This document shows, in pieces, positions 1 through 38,204 of a stretch of DNA of 38,655 nucleotides. How positions within the stretch are numbered: the first letter of the stretch is position 1; each line of letters opens with the position of its first letter. Source of the DNA: a virus; IMG/VR virus record IMGVR_UViG_3300020027_000020, positions 1 to 38,655 of that record. One strand, 5' to 3'. The position numbers were made by a program, and so were the translations under genes. The notes beneath the pieces were generated by a model. The model was given only the letters and a program-made list of their open reading frames with translations. It ran no database searches and had not been told where the DNA came from.

Positions 1-143
1 GGCCTCCCTCGCTTCTGCATGTCCTGCTCCCTGTGATCGGTTCTTCTACCACCCCTGCCCCCGTACCGGCGTGCGGTACGGGGGCGATGGAGCGGGGCCG
101 GTCAGTGGGTGCTAGCTCTACGCTCTGCTCGTTCGGCCTGCCA
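1..143. repeat. Terminal direct repeat, left copy
   Basis: Bases 1-143 align without gaps to 38513-38655. Positions 18-143 are identical (126 bases); the three differences are at 2, 3 and 17. The copy contains a hairpin (57-85) and the 3' end of the gene at 102-287. The repeat means the map is circular or the molecule carries a short direct terminal repeat. An assembly overlap of a circular or circularly permuted genome is as likely as a true packaging repeat. The three differences fall in the start of the gene whose complete copy is at 38323-38532, changing its second codon from Lys to Gln, which could be strain variation or end error. Confidence 0.9.
57..85 (-). terminator. Hairpin terminator after the 61-aa gene
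   Basis: A perfect 12-bp stem (57-68 with 74-85) closes a 5-nt loop. It lies 16 bases beyond the stop codon of the leftward gene 102-287 and before the next leftward gene, whose start is seen at 38532 across the circle junction. No U-tract follows, as is common in actinobacterial terminators. It may only attenuate, since the downstream genes have no obvious promoter of their own. Confidence 0.6.
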
Positions 144-287
144 GTCACCGAAGGAAGTCTGGTTCTCGATGCCAGCGATCCACGCAATCCGCCCATCCCG
201 GTCGTCGGTCTCGATGAGAACCGCCGCCCCCGACTCAAGTTGAGACACCATGTACGCGATCTCTCGCTCCGTCATCTTCTGATTCAT
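102..287 (-). CDS. Hypothetical protein, 61 aa
   Basis: I do not recognise this small acidic protein. The ATG at 287 is preferred over the GTG at 293 because GGGAG lies five bases upstream of the ATG, while the GTG would overlap it. It has no membrane segment or cysteine motif; it carries a run of acidic and arginine residues in the middle and a charged C-terminus. It is the first securely called gene behind the promoter at 493-521, so it is probably expressed with the small-gene operon that continues at 38532 on the circular map. Its 3' end is present a second time in the right terminal repeat (38614-38655). Confidence 0.6.
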   Translation of the reverse strand: MNQKMTEREIAYMVSQLESGAAVLIETDDRDGRIAWIAGIENQTSFGDWQAERAERRASTH

Positions 288-430
288 GTCCACTCCCTGT
301 GATCGGTGGTGTCACAACGGGAACGGTCCGGTCTGGGCTGGTGCGGCTGGTACTCACCTTGCCTCTGAGCCGACTTCCGTCCGGGGCGGAGTGGTCTTCC
401 GCGACTCAAGATCCAGGCTTTATACCGCAC
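284..430 (-). CDS. Possible 48-aa leader gene
   Basis: An open frame from GTG at 430 ends with a TGA that overlaps the ATG at 287 (ATGA), the same coupling used throughout this phage. It encodes a very basic peptide rich in Arg, Pro and Gln. Against it, there is no Shine-Dalgarno sequence and third-position GC is low compared with neighbouring genes. If it is not a gene, 288-492 is simply the untranslated leader between the promoter and the first ORF. Confidence 0.3.
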   Translation of the reverse strand: MRYKAWILSRGRPLRPGRKSAQRQGEYQPHQPRPDRSRCDTTDHREWT

Positions 431-492
431 TTAATCGGGGTAGCCACCACACTCCCGATGCCGTTCTGTTCCGTTCCCGTTGCGATGCCCTA

Positions 493-521
493 AGTAGACA
501 TCAATGAATCGATCGTGTCAA
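493..521 (-). promoter_or_regulatory. Leftward promoter with operator core
   Basis: Read on the minus strand: TTGACA (516-521), a 17-nt spacer and TCTACT (493-498). The spacer begins inside the 16-bp core TGACACGATCGATTCA (505-520). The stretch down to about 484 matches the promoters at 8133 and 34596 almost base for base. It starts 11 bases from the stop codon of the polymerase gene and should drive gene 102-287 and, across the circle junction, the small-gene operon from 38532 leftward. The shared core suggests control by one phage DNA-binding protein. Confidence 0.8.
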
Positions 522-531
522 GCGGATCGCC

Positions 532-3500
532 TCACTTCTCGTAGAGGGCGCCCCAGGTGGTGCCGAACACGAACGGCTTGCCCTGCCCGGCAGTGATGCT
601 GACCGGGATCGAGGCACCGGCCGGCGCCCACATGCGGGACATGGCCGACTGCACCGTACGGGCCACCTCCTCACGGTCCTTGCGCGGCACGCTGAGCACC
701 ACCTCGTCATGAACGATGACGCGCAGCATGGGCAGGATCTCCGGCGCCGTAGCGGCCAGCGTGAGCAGCCCCTCGGCAATCAGGTCACGGGTGGTGGACT
801 GGCCGTACATGGCCGGAGCCTGGGTGTACGCCCGGTCCGGGTCCACGCGCAGCTTCCGGCCGAACCCGTTGTCGATCAACGTGCCCTCTTCGCCCAGCGC
901 ACGCACCCGGTTCTGCCACTCGACCACCTTGGAGAACTCCGCGCGCATGTAGCTGTCCAGGTTCTGCGCCGCCTCCATCGTGACGCCTGCCGTGTTCTCG
1001 ACCATGCCGCGCATGCCGCGCCCGTACAGCCACCCCAGGTCCAGTGTCTTGGCTGGCTTGCGGTCGACGCCGGTCCGGTCGGCGATCTCCTGGTGGAAGT
1101 CGCGCGTGGGGTCGTTCAGCAGCGCGATGAGGTTCGGGTCCTGGGAGTGCGCGGCCACCGCTCGGATGTCGATCTGGTCAAGGTCGATGCTGACCAGAAC
1201 CTCCTCGTCTTCGGGCAGCAGGTAGTACCGCTCGCTGTCCGGCACGCCCTTCTTCAGGACCGTGAGGCCACAGCTCCAACGGCCCGTGGTCTGGAACGGC
1301 TCGAAGGTGTAGTGCACGCGGTCGACGATGACGTTGCCCAGCAGGCTCGCCGCGGTGGTGCGCAGCCCGTTCATGCCCTGGACCGCCTCGATCACCGGCA
1401 CGGCCGCGGGCACGTTCTTCTCGGCGTGGGCCAGCGCGTACGCCATCGTCTCCTTCTTCAGGGACAGCGACCCGTCCTTGCCCCGGGGCCAACTGGCCAC
1501 GGGGAACCCGAGCCCGGACAGCGCCGCCTCGAACGCCTTCTTCCCTGCCTCTGTGCGCTGCGGTGCGGCCGACTCCCCGCCACCCTTGGTCGTCAGGGGG
1601 AATCCGTACTCCTGCGAGAGCATCAACTTGCCCGCGGCCGAGCGCTCGGCGTCCTCCTGTACGCGTCCCTGAAGGGCGGGCAGGTCCACCTTGAACCCGT
1701 TGAGCGTGGTGCGCGCCGTGATGGCGCAGACGCGCGCCTCACGCGCCTCGTAGGGATCCCACGGGATGGCAGCGTCCAGCTCTGCGGTGACCTTCAGATC
1801 CTCACGCAGGTACTCGACGTAGCGTGGGTCGCTCGCCGGGATGTGGTCCCACCCGCCGAACTCCTTTGCCAGTGCCTCGCCGAGTCCCGACTTGCCGGGC
1901 CGACCGAGGTAGCGCTCCGACAGGGCGTCCATGCTGTAGCGCTTGAAGCCGGGCCCGGATGCCGTCTCGTAGCTGGTGGGCGGGTCGTTCTGGAATGCGG
2001 CGATGCGCAGATCCCGGCCCCCGATGATCGTCTCCTCCACAGGGACGCCGTGGTGCCAGTCCATGGCGATCGAGTCGAAGAAGAAGTTGTTCACCCCGAC
2101 CAGGGGCAGCGCTTTCATTCCCCGGGTGACAGTCATCAGGTCCGGCGGGGAGGCAGTCACCACCCGATCACCGACGCCGACCAGCTTCACGTACTCGCCG
2201 ACCGGGGCGGAGAACAGGTCGTCGGCGCTGCCTGTCTCGATGTCGAACGGGACGAAGCCCTTGATCACTTCCGCACTGTCGCGAAAGTGATCCGGCTCGG
2301 GGTCCGCGTCGGGCTCGGACGGGCCCTCGAACGGGGAGCCCCCGCCGGCAGGACCTTGACCGTTTCCACGGTTGATCGCTGCGCCGAACCAGCCGCGCAC
2401 CTGTCGGCCACCGGCAGACTTGCGGCCGGTCGTCACCTTCCTGCCCTTGATCGCCTCGTGCCCGCCGAACCGGGACGCGAACGTCTTGTCGTTCCACGGC
2501 CGGTGGCCCGCGTCGCCCGCCCACGTGTTGAAGGCGGTCAGCATCACGGACGACTGAGTGAAGTCCTCCGGGTTGAAGACCAGGCACTCATCACTGAAGC
2601 CGATGATCTGGTCCGTCTCGGCGCGCCATTCACGGGTAGACCGCTCGATCTCCGGCGGGTTCTCCATCATCTGACGGTCACGGGCGTACCACTTGACCGC
2701 CCCCGCCACCATCCAGCTGAGCGCCGCCGCGCGGACGTCGGGATTGTGGTGTGCGTACTGAAGGCTGGGGTCTCCTTGCCGGTCTGTGGCCAGCGTGAGC
2801 GCCTTGCCAGGCTTGCGGAAGGTATACGGGAAGGAGAGCAGGCACAGGCGCCTCCAGGTGCCGTGGTCCGTCTCCGTAACGATCGGCCGGTGGTTGGTGT
2901 TGATGAACAGGCTGTGCGTGGTGGCGAAGGAAACCGTGTCCTGACGGATGCGCCGGGCCGTGATCATCTCCGTGCCCAGGGTGGTCTTGATCCGCTGGGT
3001 GTTGAGGTGCCGTTCCTCGGGCGTCTCCTCAAGGACTGCGTACCGCGCACCCCGCAGATCCATGAGCTCGGTGGGGTGCGCATCGGGGGACGCCATGAGT
3101 ACGCGATCGGAGATGACGACTCCGTACCCGCCGAGCGCGCCGTACACCGCGTTCACGATGGTGGACTTACCGTTCTCGCCGGACCCATGGGCGATGACCA
3201 ACTGGTGGTCCGCCACCGGGTAGCCGGTAGCAGCCTGACCGATCCGGTCCTGATACCAGTCATGCACGCCATCGGGGAGCGCGGTCAGTGCCTTGTCCCA
3301 CATCGGGTGGGTGTAGCCGGGGCGGTACTCCGCGCCCGCGATCTTGGTCATCAGGTCGTCCGGGGAGAACGGGCGCAGCGCGCCGGTCGGCAGGTGCACC
3401 GTGCCGTTGAGAGCGGTCAGCAAGTCGGGGTCCGCATCGAAGTCCTCGGCCCGACGCTGCACGGAGTCGACGCCGCGAGACAGGTCCAGCAGCGCGCGCA

Positions 3501-4527
3501 GCCGGGACTTGCTCAGCACGCCGCGCCACCCGGAGATCTTCCCCGTCAGGTTTGCCGCCTTGTCCGCCGCCTGTGCGGCCAGCGCCCCGTCGTACCGGTT
3601 GCTCGCCCACTGCCGGATCGCTTCCACGGGCTCGACGTCGGAGACCTCACGCCACACCTTGCCGGTCCACGCCATCCAGCCGAGTCCGGCGGACCAGCAG
3701 TACTTCCCGGAGAGCGCCTCATCGGCCGCCTCTTCCACCAGGAACGCGTCGGTGAAGGACGCATCTGCCGCTACCGCTCCGGGCGCCGTAGCGGTAGCGG
3801 CAGCGGCCAGCGTGGCGGTGTCCCCGCCGGCCGCAAAGAAGTCGTCGACGCCCTTCACAGGCACGCCTGCCACCTCGGCGGGGACCACGATGTACTTGAC
3901 CTCTTTGGCCCCGCGGCTGCACAGCCACGCTCCGAGCCGCTTCATGGCCTGCTGCACGTTGCGGTTGCTCGATGCGTCGGCGTCGAAGCAGAGCACCATC
4001 ACGCGCCCCTTGAGGGGGATCTCCTCCCAGTCCCCGAGGACGCCGGTTCCCTGGCGCCAGTTGTAGACGCCGGAGACGCCGAGTGCGGCGCAGCCCTGGG
4101 AGACAAGTGAGTCGACCTTCTTCATGCCCTCGGTGACCCACAGGGGCGTCTCCTCAGGCCCGTCCTCGGCGTCGAGCTTGGCGCGGGTGAACGCGGGGAC
4201 GTCGATGCAGAGCGGCGCGCCCTTGGGCGTCTCGTACTTCCGTGGGACAGGGCTGCCGTCGACGCGCATCCGGAGCAACGGGGTCGCCGGTTTGATCTGG
4301 ACGCCGGCGAGCTCACCGTTGCGGCGGTGCATCGGGACGTACAGAAGGGGGTAGAGCCCCTCCCTGCCGCGCGTGTAGGGGGTGAAGCCGTCCCGCTCCA
4401 GGGTGGCGTCCTCCTCAGCGGTGCCCGTCATGGTCATGTACCCCCGTGCGGCGGCCACCTCGGGAAGGACTGCGGACTGCTCGATGACCTCGGCCATGTG
4501 CGCATCGTTCAACTGCGGAAAGTCCAC
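532..4527 (-). CDS. Toprim-SF3 helicase-exonuclease-DNA polymerase A fusion
   Basis: This 1331-residue protein probably carries out most of phage DNA replication. Visible in order: a Toprim/DUF3854-like part (VTEGMKK near 130-136 and FDAD near 180), a D5-type region, an SF3 helicase with Walker A GSGENGKST near 447-455, a 3'-5' exonuclease (FDIETG near 761, then a YLREDLKVT-type third motif), and family A polymerase motifs (motif A around DLDQIDIR near 1112, motif B with KTLDLGWLYGRG, motif C VIVHDEVV near 1271). No AEP or zinc primase motif was recognised, so priming is uncertain. The GTG start has GAAAGG nine bases upstream; an ATG at 4497 is an alternative. In many phages the helicase and polymerase are separate genes. 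No second polymerase is seen in the window. Confidence 0.92.
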   Translation of the reverse strand: MDFPQLNDAHMAEVIEQSAVLPEVAAARGYMTMTGTAEEDATLERDGFTPYTRGREGLYPLLYVPMHRRNGELAGVQIKPATPLLRMRVDGSPVPRKYETPKGAPLCIDVPAFTRAKLDAEDGPEETPLWVTEGMKKVDSLVSQGCAALGVSGVYNWRQGTGVLGDWEEIPLKGRVMVLCFDADASSNRNVQQAMKRLGAWLCSRGAKEVKYIVVPAEVAGVPVKGVDDFFAAGGDTATLAAAATATAPGAVAADASFTDAFLVEEAADEALSGKYCWSAGLGWMAWTGKVWREVSDVEPVEAIRQWASNRYDGALAAQAADKAANLTGKISGWRGVLSKSRLRALLDLSRGVDSVQRRAEDFDADPDLLTALNGTVHLPTGALRPFSPDDLMTKIAGAEYRPGYTHPMWDKALTALPDGVHDWYQDRIGQAATGYPVADHQLVIAHGSGENGKSTIVNAVYGALGGYGVVISDRVLMASPDAHPTELMDLRGARYAVLEETPEERHLNTQRIKTTLGTEMITARRIRQDTVSFATTHSLFINTNHRPIVTETDHGTWRRLCLLSFPYTFRKPGKALTLATDRQGDPSLQYAHHNPDVRAAALSWMVAGAVKWYARDRQMMENPPEIERSTREWRAETDQIIGFSDECLVFNPEDFTQSSVMLTAFNTWAGDAGHRPWNDKTFASRFGGHEAIKGRKVTTGRKSAGGRQVRGWFGAAINRGNGQGPAGGGSPFEGPSEPDADPEPDHFRDSAEVIKGFVPFDIETGSADDLFSAPVGEYVKLVGVGDRVVTASPPDLMTVTRGMKALPLVGVNNFFFDSIAMDWHHGVPVEETIIGGRDLRIAAFQNDPPTSYETASGPGFKRYSMDALSERYLGRPGKSGLGEALAKEFGGWDHIPASDPRYVEYLREDLKVTAELDAAIPWDPYEAREARVCAITARTTLNGFKVDLPALQGRVQEDAERSAAGKLMLSQEYGFPLTTKGGGESAAPQRTEAGKKAFEAALSGLGFPVASWPRGKDGSLSLKKETMAYALAHAEKNVPAAVPVIEAVQGMNGLRTTAASLLGNVIVDRVHYTFEPFQTTGRWSCGLTVLKKGVPDSERYYLLPEDEEVLVSIDLDQIDIRAVAAHSQDPNLIALLNDPTRDFHQEIADRTGVDRKPAKTLDLGWLYGRGMRGMVENTAGVTMEAAQNLDSYMRAEFSKVVEWQNRVRALGEEGTLIDNGFGRKLRVDPDRAYTQAPAMYGQSTTRDLIAEGLLTLAATAPEILPMLRVIVHDEVVLSVPRKDREEVARTVQSAMSRMWAPAGASIPVSITAGQGKPFVFGTTWGALYEK

Positions 4528-4562
4528 TGGTGCTAGCCTTTCAGTGCGTGTAGCAAGGTGAT

Positions 4563-4599
4563 GAACGCCCGACGGGAGTAAGAGGCCCGTCGGGCGTTC
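4563..4599 (-). terminator. Strong hairpin between HTH gene and replication gene
   Basis: A perfect 14-bp stem (4563-4576 with 4586-4599) with a 9-nt loop lies in the 193-base gap between the replication gene start (4527) and the upstream HTH gene stop (4721). It could end transcription from the HTH gene or attenuate entry into the replication gene. I found no convincing -35/-10 pair for the replication gene between it and 4527, which favours attenuation or an unusual promoter. Confidence 0.6.
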
Positions 4600-4637
4600 T
4601 GCTGTGCGAGGGTGCCTGACCTGCTGAAATTCGCGAT

Positions 4638-4724
4638 CTAGTCGGGTAAGACAGCAGATCCGGTGAAGCCCTAGAGGATTTACCTTACGCGAGTTTTACT
4701 GGATCTGCTGTCTTACCCGACTAG
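4638..4724. repeat. Long inverted-repeat element, copy 1
   Basis: A perfect 24-bp inverted repeat (4638-4661 with 4701-4724) surrounds a 39-nt spacer. The arms read CTAGTCGGGTAAGACAGCAG followed by ATCC. The right arm ends on the TAG stop codon of the HTH gene at 4721-4912. A second copy with the same spacer length and about two-thirds identity in the spacer, in opposite orientation, lies at 25534-25621. The function is unknown; candidates are a replication or recombination site, a MITE-like insertion, or a structured RNA/terminator. Confidence 0.9.
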
Positions 4725-4912
4725 GCGCTTTTCCGGTGCCGCTTTTGGATGGATTCGATCTCCTCTCGTACGTACCAGGGGCGCCCGTTCGCCGGGTCCC
4801 GGTCTTCCGTGATGCGGCCGCTCTCCGCCCACCGCTTGATGGTGCGGATGTTGACGCCGGCCAGCGCGGCCGCGTGCTTCTTCTTGATGAGGGTGCGTGC
4901 TTGCGTCTCCAT
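4721..4912 (-). CDS. MerR/excisionase-like HTH protein
   Basis: A 63-residue DNA-binding protein. The pattern AALAGVNIRTIKRW followed by GRPWYVREEI fits the small winged helix-turn-helix fold of excisionases and MerR/AlpA-like regulators (HTH_17 type): a recognition helix, then a wing and a final helix. The ATG at 4912 is chosen because the longer frame from 4957 has GGAG directly against its ATG and a less plausible N-terminus; the chosen start has only a weak G-rich upstream region. It is divergent from the HTH genes beginning at 4997, across a promoter/operator region, so it is a candidate regulator of that switch. No integrase is present, so a true excisionase role is unlikely. Confidence 0.75.
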   Translation of the reverse strand: METQARTLIKKKHAAALAGVNIRTIKRWAESGRITEDRDPANGRPWYVREEIESIQKRHRKSA

Positions 4913-4930
4913 GCCCCCGAGGATACGGCG

Positions 4931-4982
4931 TGATGCCCGACATTGACACTGGCGCATCTCCGTGACACGATCGATTCATTCA
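4931..4982 (+). promoter_or_regulatory. Rightward early promoter with overlapping operator
   Basis: TTGACA (4943-4948), a 17-nt spacer and CACGAT (4966-4971) precede the gene at 4997. The 20-bp sequence 4963-4982 equals 8134-8153 exactly, but here the operator core covers the -10 and start site instead of the -35 and spacer. An upstream box, atgcccga plus two bases directly before TTGACA, recurs at the 9984 promoter. This layout supports repressor binding rather than shared promoter sequence alone. Confidence 0.7.
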
Positions 4983-4996
4983 ACCAGGAGGAACGC

Positions 4997-5242
4997 ATGA
5001 CGCTCATCATCCCGCCCCTCACCACCGACCACGTCGACGTGCTGATGATCCTCGCCCGCGGCGGCACCCGCCAGGAAGCAGCCGACCACCTCGGCATCAG
5101 CCTGCCGACGCTGAGCCGGATCCTGAACAACACCTACCGGGTGGCGGGGACCGTGAACACCACGTCCACTGTCGCGCGGCTGCTCATCTCCGGCCACCTC
5201 GTCATGACGGATGCCGACTTTCCCGCCGTGGACCGCACGTGA
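4997..5242 (+). CDS. Small LuxR/GerE-type HTH protein
   Basis: An 81-residue protein with a GerE-like helix-turn-helix: GTRQEAADHLGISLPTLSRIL near residues 30-50, followed by a helix pattern ending GTVNTTSTVARLL. It lacks any receiver or ligand domain, so it is a stand-alone DNA-binding module. The ATG at 4997 has AGGAGG upstream at good spacing. It is the first gene of the rightward unit and is followed by a paralogue with a GTGA overlap. Position right behind an operator-controlled promoter suggests autoregulation. Alternatively the fold could mediate sigma-factor-like or anti-host regulation; no target is visible. Confidence 0.7.
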   Translation: MTLIIPPLTTDHVDVLMILARGGTRQEAADHLGISLPTLSRILNNTYRVAGTVNTTSTVARLLISGHLVMTDADFPAVDRT

Positions 5243-5595
5243 TGACCGCCACCGACGGGGCCTGCACCTACGGAGAGGACCGCTCGATCGGTTCTGGGTG
5301 CATCAAGCCGGCGGGGCACGTCGGTACGCACCTTGTAGCCGAGGGCGACAGCCCGCCTGTGCGGACCCTCAAGCCGCGGCTGACACCCACCCAACTCACC
5401 CTGGCGGAGTTGCTGGCCGAGGGTTGCACCCGGAAGTACGCGGCGTGCCTGACGCGCACCAGCACGGGCACTGTGGACCGCCTCATCACGCAGATGATCA
5501 CGATCACCGGCACCACCAACGTCGCGTCCCTGGTCGCGTACCTCGTGCACCTGGATCTGATCCGCCCGAACTTCCCGACGGAGGAGACACAGTGA
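5239..5595 (+). CDS. Second LuxR-type HTH protein, paralogue of the preceding gene
   Basis: A 118-residue protein. Its second half matches the preceding protein: a TPTQLTLAELLAEG-type helix, a TxxTVDRL helix-turn-helix, then ITGTTNVASLVAYLVHLDLI. The N-terminal 45 residues carry CxxG and a GHVGTH-like segment that may bind metal or be a remnant of another domain. It starts at GTG 5239 (or the adjacent ATG at 5242), overlapping the previous stop. Both genes probably arose by duplication. Role inferred as DNA-binding regulator; the target is unknown. Confidence 0.65.
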   Translation: MMTATDGACTYGEDRSIGSGCIKPAGHVGTHLVAEGDSPPVRTLKPRLTPTQLTLAELLAEGCTRKYAACLTRTSTGTVDRLITQMITITGTTNVASLVAYLVHLDLIRPNFPTEETQ

Positions 5596-5834
5596 GTATC
5601 CACCCGGTCGTACTTGCCGACCTGAAGCTGTCCCAGGCGCGCGCCACCCTTGACCTGGAGCGGACCCGAGCGCGTCGTGAGGCGCTCCCCAACAGCACCT
5701 ACACCCACACCACGGCGATGCGCCTGCACAAGACGGAGAAGCAGCAGGCCGCGGTAAAGGGGTCCTGGGATCTCGTCGTCGCGTCGGTCGAGGACGAGTT
5801 CGAGGTCGACGAGAGAACGGTTCCGGGTGAATGA
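5592..5834 (+). CDS. Hypothetical helical protein, 80 aa
   Basis: A charged, mostly helical protein, rich in Arg, Leu, Glu and Lys, with no recognised domain. The GTG start at 5592 overlaps the previous stop (GTGA) and has GGAGGA upstream at good spacing. It ends in an acidic segment, and its stop overlaps the next ATG. It belongs to the coupled early series 4997-8129. Confidence 0.65.
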   Translation: MSIHPVVLADLKLSQARATLDLERTRARREALPNSTYTHTTAMRLHKTEKQQAAVKGSWDLVVASVEDEFEVDERTVPGE

Positions 5835-6224: not shown

Positions 6225-6487
6225 CCGAGTGGACCGAGACGCGAGACGACCGAGAGCTTCAGGGGCCTGGCCGGTACGTCGGCATGGCGTACCTCAACGT
6301 GGTCGGGCTGCTCCCCGGTCAGGACGTCTGCTACGCCACGCTGCTGGCCACCGCCGCGGCGTACGAGACGATCGGGGACGCCCTGAAGGAGAACGCAGAG
6401 GATCAGTTCCGGGGCGAGCACCCGGCAGCCACCGCCGTTCGCGGACAGGTCCACCTCGTGCAGTACAAGGTGGGCGACGATGACTGA
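6221..6487 (+). CDS. Hypothetical protein, 88 aa
   Basis: Not recognised. The protein has an Ala-rich helical centre (ATLLATAAAYETIGDAL) and an acidic C-terminus. It begins at ATG 6221 overlapping the previous stop and overlaps the helicase start by eight bases, so it is translationally coupled to both. It may be a helicase accessory protein by position only. Confidence 0.6.
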   Translation: MTEWTETRDDRELQGPGRYVGMAYLNVVGLLPGQDVCYATLLATAAAYETIGDALKENAEDQFRGEHPAATAVRGQVHLVQYKVGDDD

Positions 6488-8129
6488 GCTCAAGCTGCGC
6501 GACTACCAGACCGAGGCGATCGACGCCGTGTTCGCGGCGTGGTCCGACGGGATGCAGCGTCCTGCCATCGTGCTCCCCACCGGGGCCGGCAAGACGGTCG
6601 TGTTCTCGCAGCTGGTCAAGGAGTTCTTTCTCCGGCAGAGCAAGCGCGAGAACGCGATCGGAGACATGCAGGGAGCGTCTCGCGTCATCATCCTGGTGCA
6701 CCGCGATGAGCTTGCGGATCAGGCGATCGCCAAGCTGCGGTCCATCGCGCCGGACCTGAACGTCGGCAAGGTGAAGGCCAAGGACGACGACACAGATGCC
6801 GACGTCATGGTCTGCTCCGTGCAGACGCTGGCCACCCCCAGCGGGAGGCGGATCGCCCGAGTGCAGGGCGACCAGGGCATCTTCGGAGACGTCGGCCTGA
6901 TCATCACGGACGAGTGCCACCACGCCGCGGCTGCCTCGTACCAGAAGGTGTACGCCGCCTTCCCCGATGCGCTACAGCTCGGGGTCACGGCGACGATGGC
7001 GCGCGGCGACGGGGTCGGTCTCGGGTCCGTGTGGGAGGAGGTGGTATTCAGCCGCTCTCTCCTGTGGATGATCTCCCGGGGGTACCTCTCCGACGTCAAG
7101 GCAGTGCGCATCGACGTAGCAGGTCTCGACATGGGATCTGTGAAAACCTCGCGGGGCGACTACCAGGCCGGCCAGTTGGGCGAGGCGATGGAGGCGGCGG
7201 GCGCAGAGAAGGTCATCGCCCGCGCATACAAGGAGCACGCGGCCGACCGGCAGGGGGTGGTGTTCACACCGACCGTGGCCACCGCTGAGGAGACGGCCGC
7301 CGCGCTGAACATGGCCGACATCCCTTCGGCCGCGATCTCGGGGGAGACCCCGGGCCCGGAGCGACGACTCATCTTTGAGGAGTTCCGCACGGGGCAGGTG
7401 CAGGTGCTGGTGAACTGCATGGTGCTGACTGAGGGGTTCGACGCGCCGTGGGCATCGTGCGCCGTGATCGCGCGGCCGACGCAGTCCAACTCGCTGTACA
7501 TCCAGATGGTTGGTCGAGTGCTCCGCCCGTACCCCGGCAAGTCGGATGCCCTGGTACTTGATCTGGTCGGCGCCTCCTCCAACAAGCTGTGCACGCTCAT
7601 CGACCTTGAGCCCGGGGCCGTGATGTCGCTCAAGCCGGGCGAGTTGCTGGCCGACGCGGTGGTGCGGGAGGCGGAGGAAGCCAACGAGGTACCGCGGCAG
7701 GGCTCCATCGCGTTCGCCCTGAAGAACAAGGAGATCAGTCTCTTCGCCGCGTCGGACAAGGCGTGGTCGCGCACCCAGAAGGGCGTCATGTTCATCGGGT
7801 GCGGGGACACGACCGTGTTCCTGTGGCCGGGCGACGGGGCCTGGGACGTGTGCACGGTGACCAAGGGCGCGCCGAAGTGGGTGCGCACGCAGTACACCGG
7901 GCTGGACGTCGGCAGCGCGATGGCGTGGGGCGAGGCGGTGGCCGAGGACTACGAGACGTTCGGCGTCCACAAGGGCGCAGCGTGGCGGAAGAAGAAGCCC
8001 TCGGAGAAGGTCGTCGCTCTGGCCGGCCGGATGGGCATCCCGGTCGAGGGGCTGCGTGCAGGAGAGGTGTCAGACGCGATCGATATCGTCTTCAAGTCGC
8101 AGCTGTTCGACCGGCACGTCCCGCGGTAG
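6480..8129 (+). CDS. SF2 DNA/RNA helicase (RAD25/ResIII type)
   Basis: A 549-residue superfamily 2 helicase. Motif I PTGAGKT is near residues 35-41, motif II DECHH near 145, and motif VI QMVGRVLRP near 342. The N-terminus (KLRDYQTEAI) is the Q-motif region of the type III restriction/RAD25 helicase group. About 190 residues follow the helicase core with no recognised domain. No restriction nuclease or methylase lies nearby, so this is a phage DNA-processing helicase, probably acting with the RecB-like nuclease at 8531. It closes the early rightward series; a promoter begins four bases after its stop. Confidence 0.9.
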   Translation: MTELKLRDYQTEAIDAVFAAWSDGMQRPAIVLPTGAGKTVVFSQLVKEFFLRQSKRENAIGDMQGASRVIILVHRDELADQAIAKLRSIAPDLNVGKVKAKDDDTDADVMVCSVQTLATPSGRRIARVQGDQGIFGDVGLIITDECHHAAAASYQKVYAAFPDALQLGVTATMARGDGVGLGSVWEEVVFSRSLLWMISRGYLSDVKAVRIDVAGLDMGSVKTSRGDYQAGQLGEAMEAAGAEKVIARAYKEHAADRQGVVFTPTVATAEETAAALNMADIPSAAISGETPGPERRLIFEEFRTGQVQVLVNCMVLTEGFDAPWASCAVIARPTQSNSLYIQMVGRVLRPYPGKSDALVLDLVGASSNKLCTLIDLEPGAVMSLKPGELLADAVVREAEEANEVPRQGSIAFALKNKEISLFAASDKAWSRTQKGVMFIGCGDTTVFLWPGDGAWDVCTVTKGAPKWVRTQYTGLDVGSAMAWGEAVAEDYETFGVHKGAAWRKKKPSEKVVALAGRMGIPVEGLRAGEVSDAIDIVFKSQLFDRHVPR

Positions 8130-8407: not shown

Positions 8408-8472
8408 TCGGCTGGGTCGCGGTCATCGTGATCGGTGTCTGCCTGGTCATCGCAGGTACGTACAAGCACTGA
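8404..8472 (+). CDS. Micro membrane peptide, 22 aa
   Basis: GTG at 8404 overlaps the previous stop (GTGA). The product is essentially one hydrophobic helix (VIGWVAVIVIGVCLVIAG) with a short basic tail. It is too short for a standard holin, but it is a complete transmembrane peptide in an operon led by a strong promoter, ending eight bases before a terminator. Confidence 0.5.
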   Translation: MIGWVAVIVIGVCLVIAGTYKH

Positions 8473-8480
8473 CAGAAAGC

Positions 8481-8511
8481 GAGAGCGCCCCCGGTGAGTG
8501 GGGGCGCTCTC
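8481..8511 (+). terminator. Hairpin terminator after the micro-gene operon
   Basis: A perfect 12-bp stem (8481-8492 with 8500-8511) with a 7-nt loop starts eight bases after the stop of the 22-aa peptide and lies 19 bases before the nuclease gene. No U-tract follows. It likely separates high expression of the micro-genes from lower expression of the nuclease. Confidence 0.7.
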
Positions 8512-8530
8512 TCCATCGTAAGGGGAGATC

Positions 8531-9973
8531 ATGGCAGAGCGTAAGTGCGGGACGTGCCGGGAACCGGGGCACACGCGGGCGACGTGCCCGCAAGAGACCG
8601 AAGTCGGGGCGGTGACGATCACGTCGGTCCCGGTGCTGGATGCGTTCGCAGGGCCCGCTCCGATCTACACCGGGAGCAAGCCGGGTCCGTGGTTCAGCGC
8701 CGCGTTCCCCGGGATCTGCGAGAAGGGCGGAGAGGGGTTCGAGGCGGGCGACGAGGTGCGCGCCGACGGGGAGGGCGGGTACGAGTGCCGCGACTGCGTG
8801 ACGGACGCGGAGCAGCCTCCTGTGCCGACCGCGTGGGAGCGGCCGACCGCTGCGAACGTGAAGATGCCTGAGTCGGCGCCCGCCGCGGACCTCTTCACAG
8901 CTCCGGCTCCGGTCACGATCGTGGCTCCGGCGGAGCGCGACGACGACCCGCTCACCAACCGGTACGGCTACCTGATCAAGGACCCGCGCACCGGGGAGTA
9001 CAACCGGCACAAGAATGGGAACGTCAAGCCGTTCACGCGGACGTCCACCCTGGTGAAGGCCGCGTCGAACCAGGCGGGCATCACCGATTGGCAGCAGCGC
9101 AACGTGGTCATGGGGGCCGTGCTCCGGCCGGATCTGGTGGCTCAGGCACGCGGACTGAACCACGAGGAGCACAAGGATCAGTTGCAGGCGATCGCCCGCA
9201 TGCTCGGCGAGGCGGCGGGCAGCCGGTCGGGGTCCGACGCGGGGACGATGTTCCACACGATTACGGAGCATCTCGACGCCGGTACCGCGACCCTGGCGCA
9301 GGTGCCCAAGGAGTACCGGGAACTGGCCCGGAAGTACAAGGCGGCGCTGGATGAGGCCGGCTTCCGCGTCGTCCCGGACATGATCGAGCAGGCGGTATTC
9401 CTCGGCCAGTACGGCGGGATCGGTGGGCAGTTCGATAGGGTCCTCTTTCACGAGCCGACCGGCACGTACGTCATGGCCGACGTCAAGTCCGGCAAGTCGA
9501 TGGACTTCGGGTGGTCGGAGATCGAAGCTCAGGAGTGGGTCTACGCCACGGCGTACAACGAGTTCGGCACCTGGGACCACAAGGCCAAGGTGTGGCACGC
9601 ACCCAAGTACCGGGTAGCCACGGACTACGGGCTGGTCATGCACACGCCGGTGAAGGGCCCGAAGGCCGGACAGGTCTCCCTCCTGCGCACGGACCTCGCA
9701 CGGGGAGGCCGCCACGCGGAGCTGTGCGCCACTGTGAGGGCAGCGGACAGCGTTCGGGCAAAGCCGGTCGCGTGGTCCGCTCCGGACGACTGGAGCGCCG
9801 TTGGGCGCCCCGCGGAACGGGACTGGGACCGAGAGTTCTCCGACGTTCGGTCGGTGCGGGAGGCTGGTGTGTTGTGGCAGGAAGCAAAGGTCGCCGGGGT
9901 CGACCCGATGGAGCTCAACCACCTGGTGCAGCTTGCTCAGTCGACTCTCCGCGCGGCCGGCGTAAGCGGGTAG
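8531..9973 (+). CDS. RecB/Cas4-like PD-(D/E)XK nuclease with N-terminal zinc knuckle
   Basis: A 480-residue nuclease. Residues 6-19 form a CX2CX4HX4C zinc knuckle. The catalytic region shows FHTITEHLD (near 240), GGQFDRV (near 301), MADVKSGK (near 316-322) and AQEWVYATAY (near 334), the order of the RecB/Cas4 exonuclease family. A linker of about 100 residues rich in Ala and Pro lies between, with another cysteine pair (CRDC). ATG 8531 has GGGGAG upstream. It probably processes phage DNA ends for recombination or packaging together with the SF2 helicase and Hjc resolvase. The zinc knuckle suggests single-strand binding. Confidence 0.85.
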   Translation: MAERKCGTCREPGHTRATCPQETEVGAVTITSVPVLDAFAGPAPIYTGSKPGPWFSAAFPGICEKGGEGFEAGDEVRADGEGGYECRDCVTDAEQPPVPTAWERPTAANVKMPESAPAADLFTAPAPVTIVAPAERDDDPLTNRYGYLIKDPRTGEYNRHKNGNVKPFTRTSTLVKAASNQAGITDWQQRNVVMGAVLRPDLVAQARGLNHEEHKDQLQAIARMLGEAAGSRSGSDAGTMFHTITEHLDAGTATLAQVPKEYRELARKYKAALDEAGFRVVPDMIEQAVFLGQYGGIGGQFDRVLFHEPTGTYVMADVKSGKSMDFGWSEIEAQEWVYATAYNEFGTWDHKAKVWHAPKYRVATDYGLVMHTPVKGPKAGQVSLLRTDLARGGRHAELCATVRAADSVRAKPVAWSAPDDWSAVGRPAERDWDREFSDVRSVREAGVLWQEAKVAGVDPMELNHLVQLAQSTLRAAGVSG

Positions 9974-10116: not shown

Positions 10117-10187
10117 TCCGCAGTAGCTCAACGGCAGAGTGCCCACCATCCAGGTGGGAGATCCGGGTTCGAATCCCGGATGCGGAG
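10117..10187 (+). tRNA. Atypical tRNA, formal anticodon UCC (Gly?)
   Basis: A cloverleaf is visible: acceptor 10117-10123 with 10180-10186 (one G-A mismatch at the base), a GCTC/GAGT D-stem, a perfect anticodon stem CCCAC/GTGGG, a 4-nt variable loop, and a perfect T-arm CCGGG-TTCGAAT-CCCGG. The 7-nt anticodon loop is CATCCAG, so the formal anticodon is TCC (10149-10151), but position 33 is A instead of the near-invariant U. Position 73 is G and CCA is not encoded. G73 is unusual for Gly tRNA and more like Trp, yet a CCA reading would require broken stem pairs. Amino-acid identity is uncertain. Confidence 0.75.
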
Positions 10188-10399
10188 CGAGTCTACGACC
10201 CACCGTGAAGGGCAAACGGCTTCTGGCCAACACCCTGGATCGGGCGAAAGATTCGGTGAGGCTTCGGCTCAACTGGTCGGAAGAGTCATAAGCAGGGAAG
10301 TCCATCCCGAACCTACACCAAACGGACACGGCGCCCTGCCACTTTTGACGGGGCAGGGCGCCAACCACAGAACCCGACACAGAAACGGAACCCGAAACC
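10188..10399 (+). other. Untranslated leader between tRNA and gene 10400
   Basis: This 212-base stretch contains no convincing gene. A 28-codon frame from GTG 10205 lacks a ribosome site. The main feature is a hairpin at 10330-10362. The last 30 bases before ATG 10400 have no clear Shine-Dalgarno sequence, only GGAACCC. The region may be the 5' part of the mRNA released by processing at the tRNA 3' end. Confidence 0.5.
10330..10362 (+). terminator. Hairpin upstream of gene 10400
   Basis: An 11-bp perfect stem (10330-10340 with 10352-10362) with an 11-nt loop containing TTTT. It lies 38 bases before the start of the next gene. It could terminate the tRNA transcript, or act as a stabilising or regulatory structure in the leader of gene 10400. 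No separate promoter was found after it, which argues for a leader structure. Confidence 0.5.
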
Positions 10400-33855: not shown

Positions 33856-34046
33856 GACAGCACCGCCGCGAGGATCGATCCGAGCACGCACAGGCACAAG
33901 AGGAGGATCCCGCCGCAGCCCGTGCTCGGCTCGTTGTCGAAGTACCTCTTGTCCATCACCTCTCGGCGGGACCGGCCCACCTGCGGGTCACGGGGCGGTC
34001 GGCGCGTCCCGCCGAACGTGCTCTTCTCCCACTGTTCACGAGCCAC
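33852..34046 (-). CDS. Small C-terminal-anchored membrane protein, 64 aa
   Basis: A charged N-terminal half and a C-terminal hydrophobic segment, CGGILLLCLCVLGSILAAVL. GTG 34046 with GGGGGA upstream is chosen; ATG 33956 is another possible start that would keep the membrane part. Overlaps the neighbouring gene by 11 bases. Confidence 0.55.
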   Translation of the reverse strand: MAREQWEKSTFGGTRRPPRDPQVGRSRREVMDKRYFDNEPSTGCGGILLLCLCVLGSILAAVLS

Positions 34047-34344
34047 AATTGTGTCCCCCTGCCTTACACGCCGCGCACTTACTGTCGTCGTCCCCCTCGA
34101 TGTCCGGGTCGATGAGGTCTGCGGCCTTGCGCATGTCGTACTGCCTCTGCGGCCAGCCCTCCCATCCGTCAGCCTCTTCGCGGATCTCAGCCACTGCCTC
34201 GCGCCGTTCCTGGGAGCGGATCTTGTCGAGGATCTCGATCTGCTCCCACGTGAACCGGAGTCCCGGCATCCTGTCACCAGGTTTGTTCAGACCCAGGGAC
34301 ACGGCCAGTTCATCCACCAGCTTGACGATCTTGTCGTCATTCAT
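34036..34344 (-). CDS. Hypothetical protein with C-terminal Cys/His, 102 aa
   Basis: Helical and highly charged (KIRSQERREAVAEIREEADGWEGW), ending KCAACKAGGHNC, a likely zinc site. ATG 34344 overlaps the stop of the 23-codon gene (ATGA). Function unknown. Confidence 0.6.
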   Translation of the reverse strand: MNDDKIVKLVDELAVSLGLNKPGDRMPGLRFTWEQIEILDKIRSQERREAVAEIREEADGWEGWPQRQYDMRKAADLIDPDIEGDDDSKCAACKAGGHNCGS

Positions 34345-34415
34345 CAGTGCCCACACCCCTTCACCCATCCGCCGCACTTACCGCAGTACGTTCGCTCGTG
34401 CGGGTTGTCGCTCAT
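34344..34415 (-). CDS. Micro zinc-binding-like protein, 23 aa
   Basis: A 23-codon frame (ATG 34415) with YCGKCGGWVKGCGH, resembling half a zinc ribbon. It overlaps neighbours on both sides by ATGA. The G-rich upstream sequence is a weak ribosome site. Credible mainly from tight coupling. Confidence 0.5.
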   Translation of the reverse strand: MSDNPHERTYCGKCGGWVKGCGH

Positions 34416-34558
34416 GCCCCCGCCACCTTCCGGCATCCCTGGTCCGGCGTCCACGTCGGGTAGTCCGCGTCGGTCGAGCAGCACTCCGGGTGGCAGCGCG
34501 CCACCTCGGTGAATGCCGCGTCCTCTTCCGTCTCCATCTGGTGCAGTACGTCGCACAT
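34412..34558 (-). CDS. Small Cys-rich acidic protein, 48 aa
   Basis: The first gene behind the 34596-34624 promoter; ATG 34558 has AGGGGAC upstream. It contains CHPECCSTDADYPTWTPDQGC, a cysteine-rich possible metal site. Function unknown. Confidence 0.55.
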   Translation of the reverse strand: MCDVLHQMETEEDAAFTEVARCHPECCSTDADYPTWTPDQGCRKVAGA

Positions 34559-34595
34559 GTTCCGTCCCCTTGTCTCCGTCGTTCTCGATGCCCTA

Positions 34596-34624
34596 AGTAG
34601 ACACCCGTGAATCGATCGTGTCAA
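34596..34624 (-). promoter_or_regulatory. Leftward promoter with operator core
   Basis: On the minus strand: TTGACA (34619-34624), a 17-nt spacer and TCTACT (34596-34601), with TAGGGCATC following. The operator core TGACACGATCGATTCA spans 34608-34623. The -35 overlaps the stop codon of the upstream gene at 34621-34623. It drives the six small genes 34558-33120. Confidence 0.8.
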
Positions 34625-34935
34625 CCCTCTGCGATGTGGATGTGGGTGTGGTTCGGCCTGTCCGGCGGAGCACTCTTGTAGATCCACATCCCCTTCCGGC
34701 CTTCGAGAGGGGTCACGCCGAGAAGTTCGTGACCTGCACAGACGTCGCAAGAAGGGCGCCCCGGTGCCGGTGGGGGAGGGGCTGTGGAAGGGGCACCCCG
34801 GCGGACCCAGAAGACGAACCAGGCCCCGACCCCCAGGTACAGGATCGGGGCCCAGTAGCAGGCGTAGGCGACCACGAACCACAGTCCGGCCAGGCGCAGG
34901 ATCTGCGCCCAGTGCCATCGCCACGGCGCTCTCAC
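34621..34935 (-). CDS. Membrane protein with Cys motif, 104 aa
   Basis: Two adjoining hydrophobic segments near 10-45 (LRLAGLWFVVAYACYW and APILYLGVGAWFVFWV), a Pro-rich linker, a CDVCAGHELLG motif and a C-terminal soluble end with HTHIHIAEG. GTG 34935 overlaps the upstream stop. It closes the Spd-like group. Confidence 0.6.
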   Translation of the reverse strand: MRAPWRWHWAQILRLAGLWFVVAYACYWAPILYLGVGAWFVFWVRRGAPSTAPPPPAPGRPSCDVCAGHELLGVTPLEGRKGMWIYKSAPPDRPNHTHIHIAEG

Positions 34936-35444
34936 GATGCGCCCGGCAGCCACATGCCCGACATGTTGATGGCGGATGCGACCGGCACGGCCAGCAGCCC
35001 CAGCCACCCCCGCACGACGCCCGTCAGGACGCCGGCAAAGGCACCCTGGACGATTCCCTTGCGGCCGTACTCGGAGCGCCTGCACACCACGACACAGACC
35101 GCCGTGACCACCAGCACCATGGCCAGTCCGCCGTTGGTCAGGGCCGTGAGGGTCGTCGACTGCACCGACTGCCGGTCCCCGCCGACCCCGTAGATCAGGG
35201 CCCCGTCGCCGATCCAGGATCCGCCCCACAGGATGGCGTCCCCGAACCACCCGAGCAGGCCGCCGCTGAGCATCAGAAGGATGCCGTAGCAGTAGCCGAA
35301 CAGAAACGGCACGAGCCGCGGGAGGTGCTTCAGGGGCTTGTCCATGAGGGACTTGCGCCCGGGGTACCAGGTGCCCAGGTTCGTGATCACCAGGTACAGG
35401 CCGAGCACGAACGATCCGAGGGTGGCCCCGTCCTTGAAGGTCAC
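34932..35444 (-). CDS. Polytopic membrane protein, 170 aa
   Basis: Four to five hydrophobic segments (LGSFVLGLYLVITNLG, LVPFLFGYCYGILLMLSGGLLGW, LAMVLVVTAVCVVVC, and a Gly/Ala-rich last one), with short basic loops. It resembles the small hydrophobic spread (Spd) proteins of Streptomyces conjugative plasmids in size, topology and linkage, but no definite family motif is seen. GTG 35444 overlaps the previous stop; two in-frame GTGs at 35453/35456 are alternatives. Confidence 0.6.
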   Translation of the reverse strand: MTFKDGATLGSFVLGLYLVITNLGTWYPGRKSLMDKPLKHLPRLVPFLFGYCYGILLMLSGGLLGWFGDAILWGGSWIGDGALIYGVGGDRQSVQSTTLTALTNGGLAMVLVVTAVCVVVCRRSEYGRKGIVQGAFAGVLTGVVRGWLGLLAVPVASAINMSGMWLPGAS

Positions 35445-36537
35445 GGCGTCCACCACCCGAGCACGCGGAAGAACGTGAGCACGGCGAGCGAGCACACCAC
35501 GCCGCCGACGAACCAGGCCACGGCTCCGGTCCGGTCCTCCCGCGGCGAGGCGAGCACGACCCCGAACCCGGCGAGCACGGTGACCGTGCCCCATGCCAGC
35601 GCCCACCACATGTTGAAGCTCATGACGTGCTCCCTTCGTGCTCGATGGTCAGGGCCGCGCACAGGCGCTGTGCCCGCGGCGTGCCCACTCCGAGTTCCGA
35701 CTTGATGGCGCGCACGGTGGGCACGCCCGTGCCCTGTCCCATGAGCACACGTGCCCGCTCGACGAACGCCGTGTCCGACGGCAGGAGCACACCGCTGAGC
35801 ACGTGCTCCATCACCGTGTTCGTGAACCCATCGTCCGCGCTTGGTGTGCTCGACTCGGGCACGATGCCGAGCACACGTGCGGCCACGTCGTAGAACTCCT
35901 TGTCGCGTGCGATGTGCTCGTCCGTGTCCGGGGGATCGGGCACAAGGCGGAGCACGGGCGCGCCCGCGCCGTGCTCATCCCACTGGTAGGGGAACGGATG
36001 CGTGCCTGTCCACGGGCCGTCCGTGCTCGCCACGGGGTGCTCACGCTTCACGTGCTCGGCCATGGCCAGGAACGGGACCTCGTGCCAGCACAGCACGCAC
36101 GTGCTCGTGTGCGTGCTCGCCACGGACACGGCCTCTTCCGCGTGCTCATCGAACGTGCCCGGTGCGTCACAGGAGCGTGAGCACGAGTACGAGCACACGC
36201 ACAGGGTCTCGTCATCCGTGCCCGTGGCGTGCTCGCACGGGCACGGTGCATGCTCGGGTGCAGCGGGCACACTCACCGTGCCCGTGGCGTGCTCCGGGTG
36301 CTCGCGCTCTCCGGGCGTGCCCGGGTCGTCGGGCACACGCTCGTGCTCGTCGCCCTCGGCCCAGAGCACGCGTGCCCGTGCCTCGCTCGGTGTGCTCAGG
36401 GCGTGCACGCGCCAGAGCACAAGCGGAGCGATGGCGGACACGGCCGTGATGAGCGGCCACCCGACGTGGAGCACGCCGGCCGTGACCAGGTGGCTCGACG
36501 CGTTCACGCCGACCATGGCGAGCACGGCCGTGAGCAC
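35403..36537. repeat. Cluster of about 35 GAGCAC/GTGCTC hexamers
   Basis: I counted 35 copies of GAGCAC or its complement between 35403 and 36537 (examples at 35403, 35459, 35477, 35490, 35552, 35573, 35743, 35797, 35803, 36023, 36037, 36052, 36113, 36289, 36298, 36520, 36532), plus one at 36733. Fewer than one would be expected for this length and base composition. They occur on both strands, cross three genes, and in the largest gene fall in two of three frames (encoding Glu-His, Val-Leu or a shifted Ala). The signal is therefore at the DNA level. Confidence 0.9.
35441..35623 (-). CDS. Small two-span membrane protein, 60 aa
   Basis: Two hydrophobic segments (WALAWGTVTVLAGFGVVLA and AVAWFVGGVVCSLAVLTFF) with a short charged loop. 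Translationally coupled at both ends (ATGA with the 364-aa gene; GTGA to the next). Resembles small Spd-type membrane proteins of Streptomyces plasmids by topology only. Confidence 0.6.
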   Translation of the reverse strand: MSFNMWWALAWGTVTVLAGFGVVLASPREDRTGAVAWFVGGVVCSLAVLTFFRVLGWWTP

Positions 36538-36714
36538 CTCCCTGTGCGCCCGCAGAGCGCGCACGGCGTAGGCGTCGAGCGCGCCGGGCACAGCTGCGGC
36601 GATCCACTGGTTCATGCCGATCGCCCGTGCGAGCTCGTACTCCGCCGAAGCAGTGGCCACGAGAGCGAATCCCGCGGCCACCCACTTCAGCCAGTCTTTC
36701 CGGGTCTTGGTCAT
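35620..36714 (-). CDS. Spd/DUF2637-like membrane protein with C-terminal HTH, 364 aa
   Basis: N-terminal hydrophobic segments in about the first 105 residues (WVAAGFALVATASAEYELA, AAVPGALDAYAVRALRAH, VLTAVLAMVGVNAS, ITAVSAIAPLVLWRVHAL) match the spread/DUF2637-type proteins of Streptomyces plasmids. The middle is Cys/His-rich and contains a C2H2-like finger (CVLC, then AEHVKREH). The C-terminus (VPTVRAIKSELGVGTPRAQRL) looks like the small HTH ending in the same plasmid proteins. GAGCAC repeats give it many Glu-His pairs. A membrane-linked DNA-binding role is inferred. ATG 36714 overlaps the previous stop. Confidence 0.65.
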   Translation of the reverse strand: MTKTRKDWLKWVAAGFALVATASAEYELARAIGMNQWIAAAVPGALDAYAVRALRAHREVLTAVLAMVGVNASSHLVTAGVLHVGWPLITAVSAIAPLVLWRVHALSTPSEARARVLWAEGDEHERVPDDPGTPGEREHPEHATGTVSVPAAPEHAPCPCEHATGTDDETLCVCSYSCSRSCDAPGTFDEHAEEAVSVASTHTSTCVLCWHEVPFLAMAEHVKREHPVASTDGPWTGTHPFPYQWDEHGAGAPVLRLVPDPPDTDEHIARDKEFYDVAARVLGIVPESSTPSADDGFTNTVMEHVLSGVLLPSDTAFVERARVLMGQGTGVPTVRAIKSELGVGTPRAQRLCAALTIEHEGSTS

Positions 36715-37244: not shown

Positions 37245-37246
37245 GA

Positions 37247-37516
37247 TCAGCGTCCCTCTCTTCCACATGCGGCGAGCAGCAGCGTGGCGAATGCCTCGGG
37301 TCGGTCCAGCTTGGCGTCGGCCGCGGCGGCGATTCCCTCACGGCCGGCCAGCCGGGCCGTCGTGCACTGGGCGTCCTTGTCCGCCTCTGTCCCCGCGGAC
37401 CACGCGCCCATGAACACGCGGGTCTCATCCGCGGTGGGCTTGTACGGGTCCTCGGCGCCGCACGCGGCCAGGGTCAGCAGTGCGGCAGCGGCGACGATCG
37501 TTCTGGTGACTCTCAC
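37247..37516 (-). CDS. Phage-encoded lipoprotein, 89 aa
   Basis: A signal peptide VTRTIVAAAALLTLAAC with a lipobox LAAC (Cys19) followed by a small helical domain with one more Cys pair. It should be exported and lipid-anchored. Such proteins in phages sometimes block superinfection at the cell surface; that role is inferred. GTG 37516 overlaps the preceding stop. Confidence 0.75.
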   Translation of the reverse strand: MRVTRTIVAAAALLTLAACGAEDPYKPTADETRVFMGAWSAGTEADKDAQCTTARLAGREGIAAAADAKLDRPEAFATLLLAACGREGR

Positions 37517-38088
37517 AGCGTGGGCTCCTTGGTCTTCTTGACCTGACTCGGAAGGATGAACGACGCGCACCCGCAGCTGCGGTCCTCTTTGCCGCGGTCC
37601 CAGCACCCGGTGCCCCTGGCGTGTGCGTCGTGCCGGTGCTCACAGGTGCCGCAGAGGGCGTTGGGGTGGAGGTGCGGACGGAAGTCGGTGAAGTCGCGGG
37701 GCCCGTCACCCGTCAGCTCCCGGAAACAGACCTTGCCCCGGATGCGGTAGGCGACGATCGGATACGCGTCCCCGTGCAGGGACACCCGGTCTGCCACCTG
37801 CCGGACCGCGATCCGGTCGGCAGGCGAGAGCAACGGGTTGCTGATCTTCGCCTGAATCCACAGGGTGTGCGGGTCACCGACCGCGACGACGTCGATCTTG
37901 CCCCGGCTGCCCGAGCTGCGGAGCACGTCGTACCCGAGCTCGCCCAGGTGGTGCATGATCTGGAGCTCGAAGTTGGCACCCTGCCGCGTGGTGTTCTTGG
38001 CCTTGCGCGTCTTGGACGATCGCCGCTTGGCGGTCTCGGCAACGCGCTTCTGAGTGGTCTCCTTGATGACCTCGATGTCCCAGGTCAT
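37513..38088 (-). CDS. Hjc-type Holliday junction resolvase/nuclease, 191 aa
   Basis: After a basic N-terminal 35 residues comes GANFELQIMHHL (Glu41), LRSSGSRGKIDVVAV (Ser-Arg-Gly and Asp66) and LWIQAKI (Gln79, Lys81), the order of archaeal Hjc-like PD-(D/E)XK enzymes. The C-terminal part has a Cys/His cluster (CGTCEHRHDAHARGTGC, CGCASF) that likely binds zinc. It resolves branched DNA before packaging. Glu of the ExK motif is Gln here, as in some relatives. Confidence 0.8.
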   Translation of the reverse strand: MTWDIEVIKETTQKRVAETAKRRSSKTRKAKNTTRQGANFELQIMHHLGELGYDVLRSSGSRGKIDVVAVGDPHTLWIQAKISNPLLSPADRIAVRQVADRVSLHGDAYPIVAYRIRGKVCFRELTGDGPRDFTDFRPHLHPNALCGTCEHRHDAHARGTGCWDRGKEDRSCGCASFILPSQVKKTKEPTL

Positions 38089-38204
38089 CGGTCGCCCCGC
38101 AGCACGCGCCACAGCGCGACGCTGAGAGCGGCCAGAATGGCGAGGATGTAGACGCCGAGGCAGCCAACCAGCCCCCATACGAACCACGTCAGTGCGTCGG
38201 TCAT
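38085..38204 (-). CDS. Small membrane protein, 39 aa
   Basis: ATG 38204 overlaps the upstream stop. One long hydrophobic segment (WFVWGLVGCLGVYILAILAALSVALW) with a basic tail. Not recognised. Confidence 0.55.
   Translation of the reverse strand: MTDALTWFVWGLVGCLGVYILAILAALSVALWRVLRGDR

Follow-up and report, generated by a model that had tools for sequence, protein, structure and literature searches.

A fused phage gene with primase-like, helicase, exonuclease and polymerase parts likely encodes a one-chain replicase

The IMG/VR record IMGVR_UViG_3300020027_000020, which is classed as linear and is analysed here over its whole length of 38,655 bases (the window), carries a gene for a predicted fused replicase on its minus strand (532..4527). 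The gene starts with GTG at 4527, and its frame is open over 1331 codons. The original prediction had described an uninterrupted frame of this length; its openness stands, and its strand needs to be corrected to minus. A plus-strand reading of 532-4527 has been discarded because it contains a stop. The length of the frame by itself is weak proof of a gene because a plus-strand shadow open reading frame (ORF) of 1133 codons lies opposite to it (window 709-4110), which cautions against taking long ORFs in G+C-rich DNA for genes. The frame, Pfam matches and structure models agree on a single unbroken polypeptide that resembles, in successive parts, a primase, a helicase, an exonuclease and a polymerase, as had been proposed, and neither a stop nor a frameshift was found in the frame between the helicase and exonuclease regions. 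The domain architecture and the catalytic residues of the fused protein are established; the motif names used for the conserved catalytic positions are those that we take to apply to them.

The C-terminal half consists of a 3'-5' exonuclease part (residues 758-940; 1708..2256, minus strand) and a family A DNA polymerase (residues 941-1331; 535..1707, minus strand). The Pfam model DNA_pol_A (PF00476) matches residues 1028-1317 above its cut-off (E 1.8e-23), and the AlphaFold2 model of the C half, with a mean predicted local distance difference test score (pLDDT) of 88.7 and a predicted template modelling score (pTM) of 0.87, matches Klenow fragments (1kfs, Foldseek E 1.4e-21, template modelling score 0.71). 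The exonuclease residues D762, E764, D818, Y906 and D910 and the polymerase residues D1115, K1160, Y1168, H1273, D1274 and E1275 are kept in 32/32 C halves. The position equivalent to E. coli Phe762, residue 1164 by our reading from the motif pattern, is occupied by His in 87 of the 102 sequences of the family and by Leu in 10, while the script gave no reliable reading for another five; the window protein itself has Leu. His at this position is also seen in the cultured phages prophiBWHA-1 and BabyGotBac. Because a published survey of viral PolA left out sequences whose position 762 is not F, L or Y (PMC9069017), this mostly His-bearing polymerase family may have been overlooked. Polymerase motif B reads Y-G-R-G in the window protein and Y-R-R-G in the relative L002, there in a 9-residue motif B region near residue 1180.

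The middle of the protein (residues 252-706; 2410..3774, minus strand) is a D5-type superfamily 3 (SF3) helicase with D5_N, DUF5906 and a C-terminal helical part. D5_N (PF08706) matches residues 274-414 (E 8.4e-17, 62.2 bits against a cut-off of 22.4), DUF5906 matches residues 447-560 (E 1.8e-8), and the NCBIfam model of the P4-type primase C-terminal region, TIGR01613, scores 154.9 bits against a cut-off of 108.7. These residues fold like D5-type SF3 primase-helicases (9ivf_B, Z 32.4; 7om0_D, Z 27.7). The Walker A motif lies at residues 448-456 (3160..3186, minus strand), and its K454, as well as E501, is kept in 40/40 aligned N halves. In the relative L036, a fused ORF of 1910 codons (33-5762) has an intein-like insert inside this motif. 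A Gly/Pro/Asp/Glu-rich linker (residues 716-757; 2257..2382, minus strand) separates the helicase from the exonuclease; it is unconserved, its length varies between aligned relatives, and the similarity between relatives changes here.

The first 250 residues are best described as a predicted DnaG-type primase core without a zinc finger, for which priming is putative. The core covers residues 3-252 (3772..4521, minus strand), of which 126-236 match DUF3854 (Pfam, E 1.1e-16). In the AlphaFold2 model of residues 1-708 (mean pLDDT 88.8, pTM 0.64), it aligns over about 210 residues with the DnaG RNA polymerase domain structures 2au3, 5guj, 5w33 and 1dde (Z 13.4-15.0). The best match is Aquifex 2au3 (Z 15.0, root mean square deviation 3.7, 213 aligned residues), followed by those of B. 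subtilis (5guj, Z 14.9) and M. tuberculosis (5w33, Z 14.1). The modelled fold extends beyond Toprim alone to the N-terminal subdomain of the DnaG RNA polymerase domain. The Toprim acidic residues E133, D182 and D184 are invariant in 40/40 aligned N halves, as are D228 and D229. The assignment to DnaG rests on the fold because sequence alignments are insignificant: a profile of the N-terminal part found nothing up to E 1 among PDB sequences, and hhalign gave E 0.046 against E. coli DnaG and 0.017 against T7 gp4, with controls at 0.22 and 0.89, although both of these alignments put the Toprim motifs in the correct register. The original prediction had not recognised classical primase motifs; this is to be corrected, its Toprim-like part now being modelled as a DnaG-type core. 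The term core is used, rather than complete DnaG, because a zinc-binding domain is absent: the protein starts with the RNA polymerase domain and has just four scattered Cys in residues 1-260. Most D5-like helicases of multidomain proteins have been described as preceded by an archaeo-eukaryotic primase (AEP) or a DnaG domain (PMC2579912).

The fused gene is confirmed not to be an artefact, because whole-length similarity extends to an ORF on an independent contig and to a homologue on a complete plasmid, and because the linker stretch is open. Contig IMGVR_UViG_3300020034_000042, from a second metagenome, encodes a fused protein of 1373 residues that is 70% identical to the window protein over window residues 6-1331, and the linker stretch is open in both ORFs. 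The linear Streptomyces plasmid pS1D4-14.2 (L003; complete, 98,815 bases) encodes a full-length homologue (39% identical, 96% covered) annotated as 'phage/plasmid primase, P4 family'. With its terminase, ParB and integrase genes, this plasmid resembles a phage-plasmid. Fused forms are found in two more Streptomyces isolates (L054, L055). The closest homologues, when examined for the common form, proved to be fused as well. The two halves are also found as separate genes in many phages, as had been stated. The neighbouring genes for gp9a and gp11 of phiC31, and like pairs such as Dubu 34/35, encode a primase with SF3 helicase and a PolA as in the window protein, but as two genes, and the phiC31 pair is about 26% identical to it.

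A cultured phage has a comparable fusion. Pas55 of Actinoplanes phage phiAsp2 (gene pas55, AY576796.1, 1415 residues) is likewise one ORF, with an N-terminal DUF3854 and a C-terminal 3'-5' exonuclease and PolA, and its C half is 35% identical to that of the window protein. However, its middle, the helicase part, does not resemble the D5 helicase, and Pfam gives no match to it at E values up to 1. A coverage count, in which none of 2231 records of a phage collection covered 80% of the fused protein, had pointed to an absence of such fusions from cultured phages; this is wrong, and the count missed phiAsp2 because its helicase part is dissimilar. Pas55 is annotated merely as 'putative DNA polymerase' and matches phrog_17 ('DNA polymerase') over 2-1414, so a fused member seems to be present in PHROGs with nothing in its name to show the fusion.

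Fused and split forms both occur among relatives. A profile scan of viral contigs from the primase-helicase side gave 49 loci, 31 of which have primase, helicase and polymerase in one ORF and 11 of which are split. One locus (L024) runs from primase into exonuclease, where the contig ends, four are cut too early to be classed, and two have the N-terminal part only, with no match to the window-type helicase. Thirteen contigs whose forms are split or partial were searched for PF00476: a separate PolA turned up in 4 and none in nine, two of them short. Seven contigs of about 40 kb (L034, L037, L038, L039, L040, L049 and L053) carry the N-terminal primase part with no PolA match, and such phages may use the host polymerase. 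Among GTDB genome contigs, a single-sequence scan found no relative, whereas a profile scan found 15. A restriction to Actinobacteria has not been adopted, as some primase-helicase relatives lie in bins named Acidobacteria and Armatimonadetes.

On the polymerase side, 47 of the best 80 of 337 relatives are fused. Because these 80 are the highest-ranking matches to a query alignment of mostly fused proteins, they are silent on frequency among phages at large; the set also overlaps in part with the 49 contigs. Within these best 80 there are 23 Toprim-D5-PolA, 19 phiAsp2-like and 3 D5 fusions without a Toprim match, 28 separate polymerases and, at contig ends, two D5-PolA, three phiAsp2-like and two uninformative cases. 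The later tree includes 29 separate polymerases. For 17 of them the fetched locus contains a primase and/or helicase ORF, and in 14, by our reading of the list, this ORF is directly upstream on the same strand; in some loci (L108, L035) the two ORFs nearly touch. In L148, a Prim-Pol domain (PF09250, E 2.4e-17) occupies the primase slot, and L099 matches phrog_1156 (DNA primase) over 36-845. Unrelated modules of D5, phiAsp2 and Prim-Pol plus D5-like type fill the primase-helicase slot of one polymerase family. The ORFs of L148 (1758-6797, 1680 codons) and L099 (1947-6719, 1591 codons) each combine a Prim-Pol (AEP) or AEP-type primase, a D5-like helicase and PolA. In L166 and L167, the primase-helicase ORF overlaps the polymerase ORF, which is in another frame (overlaps at 7939-7957 and 8421-8538, respectively); this may reflect a true split, an assembly frameshift or programmed frameshifting.

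The two halves differ in history. The N-half tree places the window and L002 with L006, L007, L008 and L015, the C-half tree with L046 and the separate-form L045. Forcing the former group together on the C tree is 528 log units worse (approximately unbiased test, p-AU 0.0002), and an N tree on which the window, L002, L046 and L045 are forced together is 181 log units worse (p-AU 1.6e-13); these p-values and the one below are indicative, the trees being quick and the tested groups having been named after the first trees were inspected. A single shared history of both halves is rejected by these tests. Five long outgroup or distant rows were removed ahead of the N-tree tests, and the duplicate loci L020, L054, L055 and L069 and the short fragments L047 and L050 were left out of the trees. 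Sliding identity to L046 is 25-65% as far as residue 720 and 62-92% beyond 780; to L008, it is 45-77% before the linker and 25-47% after it. The tree conflict and the change of identity at the linker show that halves have been swapped between relatives at the linker. Domain mosaicism has been described for phage DNA polymerases (PMC10684548). A single origin of the fusion is likewise rejected, since a single clade of all fused rows is incompatible with the N-half tree (p-AU 3.6e-8). The N tree needs at least 3 changes between fused and split forms. The tree of 102 polymerases, a quick one in which 14 of its 99 inner branches are open, needs at least 13 fused/separate changes, counted without a comparison to shuffled labels, and at least 17 changes among module classes.

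The genes around the fused gene are typical of a tailed phage, with major head protein, portal, terminase, tape measure and endolysin genes, and the G+C content of the window is 67%. The host of this soil phage is likely actinobacterial because the closest relatives with a known host sit in Streptomyces. Megablast of the first 20 kb against phages gave no match. PF00476 matches the window once only, so no other PolA was found there, and a PHROGs scan of 20 other window ORFs found no further primase or polymerase. Plus-strand features comprise a divergent DEAD/ResIII helicase gene (6480..8129), a similar ORF being present in 28/31 fused loci, a phage exonuclease gene (8531..9973; phrog_466) and a tRNA-Gly (TCC) gene (10117-10188). 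A RusA/Hjc-like resolvase gene, a weak assignment, lies on the minus strand (37513..38187), and its homologue comes directly after the fused gene in L002. Because genes of the right end of the window (34036-38655) directly follow the fused gene in L002, this end probably adjoins the left one (1-532), which would make the record a circularly permuted, nearly whole genome.

Single-chain replicases are already known, and this domain combination is hardly described. The helicase of PREX, a protein of Plasmodium and Toxoplasma, is of T7 gp4/Twinkle (superfamily 4) type, whereas that of the window protein matches D5_N and P4-type SF3 models. PREX is described as having primase, helicase, 3'-5' exonuclease and PolA in a single chain, in the same order as in the window protein (PMC8113025). 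GP55 of lactococcal phage 1706 joins an SF3 helicase, a primase, a polymerase and a 3'-5' exonuclease, and de novo DNA synthesis by it has been reported (PMC12205980). However, GP55 has a family B polymerase, a PriS-like (AEP) primase and another domain order (PMC12205980), whereas the window protein has a family A polymerase (PF00476) and no PolB match in Pfam; nor did Pfam, at E values up to 1, give it any AEP match, the PriS fold as such not having been searched for. The Pyrovirus DUF927-PolA polyprotein (OS3173) is described as a putative primase/helicase joined to exonuclease and PolA, fused or separate by species (PMC7689252). Its module is DUF927, whereas the window protein has DUF3854 and D5; no DUF927 was found in it by Pfam up to E 1, D5_N and DUF5906 being found instead. 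In TV-Pol (Sputnik V13), a D5-like helicase is described as sharing a single chain with a polymerase that is related to family A; unlike the window protein, it has a distant polymerase family, a C-terminal helicase and no Toprim part (PMC2579912). In open-access titles and abstract openings, with subscription journals mostly outside the search, no description of Toprim, SF3 and PolA in one chain was found.

The gene probably encodes a self-contained one-chain phage replicase. The individual activities, the assembly of a ring, the work at the fork and a benefit of the tether are what we infer from the families to which the parts belong, and a replicase function is likely. The DnaG-type core would lay RNA primers on single-stranded DNA, the D5-type SF3 domain would unwind the duplex as a ring, which is probably hexameric, and extension of the primers and proofreading would fall to the C-terminal exonuclease-polymerase. 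The flexible linker of about 40 residues would tether the polymerase, hold it at the fork and set a 1:1 ratio. The fusion would come from the joining of primase-helicase and polymerase genes that are adjacent in related phages, and joining, splitting and linker exchange have recurred many times. GP55, for which all four steps in one chain are reported, provides a precedent (PMC12205980). Several observations weigh against this reading. The relationship to DnaG is visible in the fold only, the core lacks the zinc-binding domain, and the pTM of the N-half model is 0.64. The two halves were modelled separately, so the models give no mutual arrangement. Full-length GP55 is described as a dimer, not a hexamer (PMC12205980). 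Split forms sit inside fused clades, so the covalent link is not indispensable.

An unlikely alternative is that the protein is a precursor, whose linker is cut after translation so that primase-helicase and polymerase act apart. PREX, an apicoplast enzyme, is described as proteolytically processed in this way (PMC7689252, PMC8113025), and a linker of variable length and sequence, together with viable split forms, would suit such a fate. However, no conserved cleavage motif is seen in the linkers of three aligned proteins, nor is a protease gene known that would cut the linker. It is about equally improbable that the Toprim part serves binding or regulation and that a host primase primes for a helicase-polymerase fusion. 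The missing zinc-binding domain is in keeping with this, as is DUF3854, which occurs in cyanobacterial Rep proteins, where its function is described as untested (PMC10079941), and the seven contigs of about 40 kb with primase-helicase but no PolA suggest that relatives may use host enzymes. However, the modelled fold comprises the entire DnaG RNA polymerase domain, E133, D182 and D184 are invariant, and a Prim-Pol domain takes the same slot in L148.

Still less probable is a near-neutral fusion, in which adjacent co-translated genes join and part by chance and the link has little effect. The repeated fused/separate changes on the polymerase tree and the upstream, sometimes nearly touching primase and/or helicase ORFs would be expected from such a process, but large clades stay fused over low identity, and unrelated N-terminal modules are fused to one polymerase family. 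An assembly or sequencing artefact joining two genes, conceivable for a metagenome record considered here without reads, is practically eliminated by independent fused homologues, one 70% identical and one on a complete plasmid.

The benefit of a covalent link between helicase and polymerase is usually studied with engineered proteins. This one family offers natural pairs of fused and split forms, non-homologous modules in one slot and linker exchange, and the natural pairs make the value of the tether directly testable. Isothermal DNA amplification could also profit from a single enzyme that combines priming, unwinding, copying and proofreading. The class has been hidden by labels such as 'phage/plasmid primase, P4 family' in pS1D4-14.2 and 'putative DNA polymerase' in phiAsp2. 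Tentatively, and with somewhat less confidence than in the replicase function itself, phages of actinobacteria and other soil bacteria may carry self-sufficient replicases that make up a large class and have gone unnoticed. A single polymerase family, most members of which have an unusual His where E. coli has Phe762, would in these have been fused repeatedly to unrelated primase-helicases. In the window form, a D5 ring would bear up to six primases and six proofreading polymerases, and would thus be a one-polypeptide replisome. Why phages tie their replication enzymes together is now open to study.

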